A DNA stretch of 64,000 nucleotides from NCBI GenBank assembly GCA_947172415.1, contig OX359193.1:2288501-2352500 (forward strand). Direction: 5' to 3'. This DNA is from Chondrosia reniformis. Its lineage: Eukaryota > Porifera > Demospongiae > Chondrillida > Chondrillidae. A model generated the notes under the pieces. That model searched no databases and was not told the DNA's origin. It saw only the letters and a program-made list of their open reading frames with translations. This document shows positions 58,773 to 59,186 of this stretch, one piece after another. The position numbers were made by a program, and so were the translations under genes. Numbering within the stretch: the first letter of the stretch is position 1; every line of letters starts with the position of its first letter.

Positions 58773-59186
58773 CCACTTATCATCCTAGCCTCTGCACGGC
58801 TAATTGCAATTAACTCCCTTTTTCATTGAGCGCTCAGTCTTGCTTAGACTGCAGCCTCCATCTTCGCTTGTTATGAAACCACAAGTGTTTCACTTGTGGT
58901 TGATTTATATGTGGAGACAGTCATCCAACTCACCATCATTGAAGTGTACCACACTGATGAGCCCAAATGAGGGCGAAACAGCTGTCTGTGGTTCTTTGAT
59001 GAATTTGTTTCCATCTTGGATGACTGGGAGGCGATCACTGGTTGCCATTTTTAATAGGACTTCGGTCCCCAGCCAAGATTAGACTTCGGTCACTTGGCTG
59101 GTTTGGCGTAATATTTTTTCCAGTGAATATTTTACTTATCATACTAGCCTTTGCACGGTTCATTGCAATTAACTCCCTTTTTCATC
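58773..59186 (+). mobile_element. Retrozyme-like insertion carrying a hammerhead ribozyme
   Basis: Direct repeats ACTTATCATCCTAGCCTCTG ... AACTCCCTTTTTCAT (58773-58825) and ACTTATCATACTAGCCTTTG ... AACTCCCTTTTTCAT (59133-59186) flank about 300 bp, i.e. a 1.15-unit head-to-tail copy with a period of about 358 bp. A complete hammerhead motif lies between them. The insert interrupts the Helitron helicase between LLHAVR and the motif V block. A tail-only relative is at 44532-44620. Size, tandem-like structure and ribozyme match non-autonomous retrozymes or Penelope-type terminal repeats. No coding capacity. Confidence 0.75.
58948..58992 (+). ncRNA. Type I hammerhead ribozyme
   Basis: All core elements are present in order: stem I ACCACA (58948-58953) pairing perfectly with TGTGGT (58987-58992); CTGATGA (58954-58960); stem II GCCC (58961-58964) with GGGC (58971-58974) closing loop AAATGA; GAAAC (58975-58979); a short palindromic stem III AGCT region; and the cleavage triplet GTC (58984-58986). 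Predicted self-cleavage follows C58986. The minimal stem III is what is reported for Penelope and retrozyme hammerheads, which are thought to act as dimers. Confidence 0.85.

Follow-up and report, generated by a model that had tools for sequence, protein, structure and literature searches.

We describe an insert in a 64,000-nt stretch of the genome of the sponge Chondrosia reniformis, hereafter the window (C5:2288501-2352500; the genome counts 117 Mb in 15 contigs, and on contig C15 lies a COX1 gene whose frame holds eight TGA codons and whose protein resembles demosponge COX1). To judge from its makeup, the insert belongs to the non-autonomous retrozymes of animals. It has a type I hammerhead ribozyme (HHR), and its relatives elsewhere in the genome carry head-to-head arms with two fixed outer ends, here named T1 and T2. 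The window copy measures 411 nt, its two ends being 52-bp direct repeats of 92% identity, with a period of 359; the original prediction had rightly placed an insert with such repeats here, but had given 414 nt, 53 bp and about 358. It splits a broken helicase-like gene of the opposite strand, with a DUF6570 frame farther along. The features of the locus are the following.

58775-59185, plus strand: retrozyme insert of 411 nt with a single T1 arm, made of one 359-nt unit plus 52 nt.
58948-58992, plus strand: type I HHR (RF00163, 34.6 bits against a cut-off of 34), a motif that recurs in other copies.
59036-59125, plus strand: structured stretch upstream of T2, with CACTGG/CCAGTG ends, in the predicted fold of the unit (z -5.8).
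59134-59141, plus strand: T2 site (ACTTATCA), end point of the second arm in other copies.
59142-59184, plus strand: tail between T2 and T1, with a UUGCA/UGCAA hairpin and a pyrimidine tract.
59173-59184, plus strand: T1 site (CTCCCTTTTTCA), outer end of the window copy.
44519-44617, plus strand: miniature relative with a 13-nt T2 stub (weak) and an 86-nt T1 arm.
58262-58759, minus strand: helicase-like C-terminal host gene fragment adjoining the insert (UvrD_C_2, E 0.00019, below its cut-off).
59182-59792, minus strand: PIF1-like helicase host gene fragments in two frames, adjoining the insert (PF05970, E 3.1e-5, below the cut-off, and 2.5e-9, above it).

A full-length match to RF00163 (gathering score 34, E 6.9e-5 for the window) is the sole Rfam hammerhead above its cut-off within the window, and it bears out the predicted intact ribozyme. 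Read by eye, its 6-bp stem I, 4-bp stem II, core and GTC triplet are all intact; cleavage is expected after position 58986. Stem III (ACAG/CUGU) is a loopless palindrome, so that one molecule would keep only about 2 bp of it unless two ribozymes pair. A strong hairpin at 58874-58902 (ACCACAAGTG/CACTTGTGGT) duplicates both strands of stem I and could compete with it.

The predicted fold of the window unit reaches -122.7, compared with -91.4 in shuffles. Two hairpins, GGAC-UUCG-GUCC and CAGCCAAG/CUUGGCUG, are predicted within the structured stretch, which is a possible protein-binding part. When four units (window unit, A1, A2 and B, named after the families described below) were folded as circles, the tail hairpin was present in all of them and the HHR fold formed in the window unit, A1 and B, being absent in A2. 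The UUCG hairpin appeared in all three A units; B has complementary letters, unfolded in its best structure. The outer CACTGG/CCAGTG helix was folded in A1 and A2, not in the window unit. The longest stop-to-stop frame inside the insert has 92 aa, as a raw frame taken without protein-family comparison.

The unit is repeated across the genome. At least 96 pieces of this family (A) lie at 40 or more places in a DNA search in which 40 of 1213 candidates were scored, and a shorter query brings further copies. The Rfam HHR model yields at least 65 matches genome-wide, at least 51 of them above the cut-off (73 of 11921 candidates scored), among which is a second family (B) of similar build, with a different HHR and a unit of 354-355 bp. 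Remoter relatives of family A, with HHRs of 41.6 and 40.3 bits, lie at L010 1501-1733 (79%) and L013 1501-1675 (77%) and are possibly a third family. Copies also occur in tandem: arms reach about five units (L057, L067), and many have fewer than two. The tail-only relative predicted 14 kb away is found at 44565-44617 (92% identity), preceded by a unit part at 44532-44565; its T2 stub (44519-44531) is weak, because the same mapping also labelled flanking DNA in stretches of up to about 27 nt.

The ribozyme is kept in many copies. Intact core and all 14 pairs are found in 72 of 97 HHR-like 45-mers, four of the 97 being other motifs. For the comparison of pairs we retained 32 of 37 distinct 45-mers, having dropped four other motifs and one disrupted variant; 95.8% of their 448 pair cells are standard pairs, and three pairs are altered on both sides between families. 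The expectation of compensatory stem changes is borne out: two-sided cells number 35 against 14.2 in shuffles (0 of 500 as high), but neither the pairs with two-sided change (3 vs 3.1) nor the further pair types (8 vs 9.2) exceed the shuffles, so that this support rests on few independent events.

With a noncoding unit, a type I HHR, dispersed copies and short tandem arrays, the window element is, by its sequence, a retrozyme in kind. The original prediction had left a choice between a metazoan retrozyme and a Penelope terminal repeat; the former stands, and the latter is unsupported, since a search among the loci examined, with two GIY-YIG-bearing frames as queries, showed the Penelope-like elements (PLEs) next to retrozyme copies to be either unconnected fragments (L050, L052) or an element nested in such a copy (L080).

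What had been overlooked in the copies is their architecture, with head-to-head arms, two fixed ends and target duplications. We aligned 40 loci of family A, 39 in addition to the window copy, to the circularised unit and found segments on both strands in 29 of them (weakly in L065). Usually the left arm is on the minus strand and the right arm on the plus strand, so that the 3' ends point outward. One outer end, T1, reads ...CCCTTTTTTCA, or ...CCCTTTGTCA in subfamily A2, and T2 lies about 43 nt upstream of it. Wherever both ends could be typed, one was T1 and the other T2 (25 of 25 such loci among the 40 of family A, 12 of 12 among the 25 mapped to family B); likely duplicates (L060/L061 in A, L036/L037 in B) reduce these counts to about 24 and 11 independent events. 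The family-B set was obtained by dropping 5 overlapping loci of 30 and ignoring stray arms far off in two loci (L017, L019); of its members, L019 and L020 are marginal cases, and L010 and L013, both nearer to family A, are included.

Exact target duplications of 9-15 bp abut the ends in 20 of the 40 family-A loci by eye, and five more have one mismatch. A script returned no duplication in 11 of the 40, including the window copy and L056, where 13 bp are seen by eye. Arm lengths (the shortest about 10 nt, the longest about five units) and junctions vary between loci, so that these are separate insertion events. The window copy is single-armed, and at its ends neither a T2 arm nor a target duplication was found.

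Two head-to-head arms with a tail on exactly one end are the 'tail' signature of PLEs, and the PLEs resident in this genome end in the same manner. L079 holds a 772-aa frame (738 aa scanned) with RVT_1 and GIY-YIG domains, and its relatives stop at ...CCAAAGAT or about 36 nt beyond. The L080 PLE has one end of each type and a 13-bp duplication, TAACTCCCTTTTA. In a head-to-head PLE whose right end, in L093, is of T2 type, a left end of T1 type was predicted and then found in L102; L105 with the L092 PLE likewise shows one end of each type. All three PLE copies read at both ends thus combine a T1-type with a T2-type end, the rearranged L103/L079 locus having been left out of the count.

The L080 PLE sits in the tail of a family-A retrozyme copy (L080 3133-3179 and 659-670). 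It was considered as a tail-sharing partner because of an 85% match of the family-A tail immediately upstream of its ORF, and rejected: the 13-bp duplication on both sides indicates that it is nested in the retrozyme copy and is not evidence of a partner. Other tail matches are short; the strongest, in L081, covers 16 nt of the family-B tail with all 16 identical (E 0.002). No HHR in PLEs emerged when 20 regions lying downstream of GIY-YIG matches were scanned strictly; the Rfam HHR models had no match at E <= 5 in L079 and L080, and one sub-threshold match (22.1 bits) in L081. A looser scan picks up cores of PLE type, in which an additional A precedes stem II, both in several loci and in the window; these cores count as HHR-like only. 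In the window, such cores (CTGANGA-A-stem II-GAAAC/T, below the Rfam cut-off) lie at 3646 (+), 25483 (-), 29535 (-) and 43464 (+). A broken PLE occupies 25345-27616, its minus-strand RT/GIY-YIG part being 72% identical to the L079 PLE, with a head piece in inverted orientation at 27323-27616; near 25345 it has an end of T1 type. A 68-bp tandem array of 3.8 copies (21963-22222) includes GACCGAAACATTC, which resembles the 3' part of a PLE-type HHR-like core.

Retrozyme and PLE copies also share surroundings. A 13-bp minisatellite (ACTAGTTGTATGT) takes up 30 or more of 200 flanking bases at 8 of the 20 inserts tested in family A (out of 40) and at 4 of the 22 tested in family B (out of 25), compared with 1 of 300 places in the window. 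Most tested PLE 3' flanks are covered by it (at least 69 of 100 bases), except those of L052, L080 (both) and L101. It flanks L040, L044, L051-L053, L055, L057, L030, L036, L079, L091-L094, L096 and L099. A shared target and a shared safe haven cannot be told apart here. The period of 13 bp is the usual length of the target duplication, and it may be speculated that staggered PLE cuts without insertion could make 13-bp tandem duplications.

The two arms of one insert agree in their variants. In 18 two-armed loci of subfamily A1 (both L060 and L061 among them), T1 and T2 arms differ at 18 of 208 informative cells, and at 4 of 91 once CpG sites are set aside; when arms are re-paired across loci, disagreement rises to 23.5% and 25.8%, respectively, and none of 2000 permutations was as low. 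When every pass and arm of A1 is taken together, shared alleles conflict in 13 of 488 cells within loci and in 4262 of 20298 between loci. In very young inserts, passes and arms differ at 1 of 363 (L040) and 1 of 193 positions (L050). The agreement of the A1 arms suggests a single RNA shared by both; identical transcripts from one source locus would mimic such a single-molecule template.

We propose that the retrozyme probably owes its mobility to a PLE enzyme, which would begin synthesis at two sites of a single RNA, itself probably circular. The HHR would cut the retrozyme transcript and a host ligase would close the unit into a circle. A PLE protein would bind the structured stretch near T2 and cut both target strands about 13 nt apart, each target 3' end then priming cDNA on the same RNA, one at T1 and one at T2. 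Both cDNAs would go round the template, often beyond one unit, and would finally be joined head to head. Participation of the PLE enzyme appears very likely, because T1 and T2 occur together in all typed loci, target duplications are present and resident PLEs with RT and GIY-YIG domains have the same ends, and also because a published PLE protein starts at two adjacent tail-bounding sites and extends both strands (PMC11167929). The circle is the step on which we lean with less assurance, though still in its favour, and the full picture of a PLE dimer starting cDNA at T1 and T2 on one circular RNA, with both strands circling, has about an even chance of being right.

Several observations weigh against this proposal. 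Two typed ends are lacking in 15 of the 40 loci of family A, the window copy included, and in 13 of the 25 mapped to family B, and L073 apparently has T2 at both ends (by eye; its ends are not typed in the mapping), a probable exception to the rule. Among 23 regions compared (20 downstream of the 38 GIY-YIG matches listed, and L079-L081), no PLE with the retrozyme tail was found save the nested L080 match and the short matches. In subfamily A2, disagreement is 30 of 224 within loci and 226 of 2285 between them, over 5 sites that are mostly CpG or boundary positions; the A2 arms disagree within loci as often as between, and are thus uninformative on a single template. The case for a preference for the minisatellite suffers from its presence at 43 of 160 places farther out in these family-A loci.

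The distribution of arm heads likewise fits the 5' end of a linear RNA. With D the number of nt upstream of T1, we entered 61 head positions by hand, leaving out L065, L069, the miniature insert and, for the duplicates L060/L061, one arm each. As many as 22 lie within a single 31-nt stretch, D50-80 (the maximum in 20000 uniform simulations was 20), and stops there occur on 20 of 42 later passes vs 2 of 60 first passes (Fisher 8e-8); the stretch was picked post hoc, which the scan allows for and the Fisher test does not. The difference between passes makes a plain sequence roadblock unlikely, and we rejected it. We also considered and rejected that synthesis runs off where the HHR cuts (D about 198), few heads being nearby (L042, L077) and most arms passing through the site.

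The D50-80 stops fit both a circle on which synthesis meets its own start complex and a linear RNA whose 5' end lies there. We therefore weighed a variant in which the same two-start PLE mechanism copies a linear, uncut multi-unit template with its 5' end 50-80 nt upstream of T1, the HHR acting at another step. The clustered, later-pass stops speak for it, as does the insertion in vitro, by the PLE protein, of RNA with a dead HHR (PMC11167929). Yet long transcripts would have to escape an HHR that is fully intact in 72 of 97 45-mers, and multi-unit source arrays would be required while most copies have fewer than two units per arm. Moreover, three T1 arms (L050, L055, L060) end within 10 nt of one full unit, and many arms exceed one; such near-one-unit arms, together with the longest arms of about five units, tip the balance somewhat towards a circle. 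We consider the linear template unlikely, though a serious competitor of the circular one.

Long interspersed nuclear elements (LINEs) are known for inverted 5' parts and short target duplications as well, so head-to-head pairs could in principle arise by twin priming with a LINE-type enzyme in place of the PLE one. Twin priming should begin the second strand at varied places, whereas here each outer end falls at a fixed site, T1 on one side and T2 on the other, as in resident PLEs, and we regard this origin as very improbable. Equally improbable is that the window copy, for which no target duplication was found and which lies in a broken helicase gene, is a dead relic of a family no longer making active RNA, given the intact HHR of many copies, the pairs kept between families and the very young inserts L040 and L050.

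The HHR is thus, on the evidence of its sequence and relatives, real and set in a known kind of element. Metazoan non-LTR retrozymes are described as few-hundred-bp noncoding repeats with a type I HHR, tandem copies, no protein of their own and target duplications of more than 4 bp (PMC7229834), and Cervera & de la Pena 2020 (PMC7229834) demonstrated their circular RNA in coral, mussel and axolotl. The present element agrees in its type I HHR within a multi-copy unit in the range of about 150-450 bp (359 bp at 40 or more places; 354-355 bp in family B), in its tandem copies and in having no protein-coding gene. It differs in its inverted arms and fixed paired ends, for which we found no description in that account (the word 'inverted' is absent from its main text), nor did we find sponges described there.

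With PLEs (PMC3846280, PMC11167929) it shares the head-to-head arms, a 30-40-nt tail on one end, short target duplications and an HHR near the start sites. Inverted pLTRs with the tail on one of them were reported by Arkhipova et al. 2013 (PMC3846280), and a PLE protein that starts cDNA at two adjacent internal tail-bounding sites, and cuts and extends both strands, by Frangieh et al. 2024 (PMC11167929). Unlike the retrozyme, PLEs encode RT and GIY-YIG, and they are described as bearing minimal HHRs (PMC7761336), whereas the retrozyme has no evident coding capacity, a full type I HHR and a tail that differs in sequence from those of the resident PLEs read. No ORF with RT and GIY-YIG exists among the frames of the insert, and since its unit is noncoding we do not class the element as a PLE. 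Plant LTR retrozymes are also non-autonomous and HHR-bearing, with a circular RNA intermediate of the kind proposed here, but they have a type III HHR, LTRs and 4-bp target duplications, with Gypsy-type mobilisation proposed (PMC7229834).

According to a 2020 review (PMC7761336), metazoan retrozymes lack a conserved motif from which the mobilising autonomous element could be deduced. The paired fixed ends, common to resident PLEs, provide such a mark, and it is from them that we infer mobilisation by PLEs. As far as our searches of the open-access literature reach, we found no earlier report of paired PLE-type ends on a retrozyme or of two arms agreeing in their variants. The one-of-each rule and the variants shared by the arms would constitute a genomic record of template use by the PLE enzyme, otherwise known to us from one purified protein (PMC11167929). 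If a PLE dimer indeed copies one circular RNA from both sites, animal retrozymes would be parasites of PLEs that offer circular RNA for copying, and each insert would record how far each reverse transcriptase ran and that one RNA served both strands.
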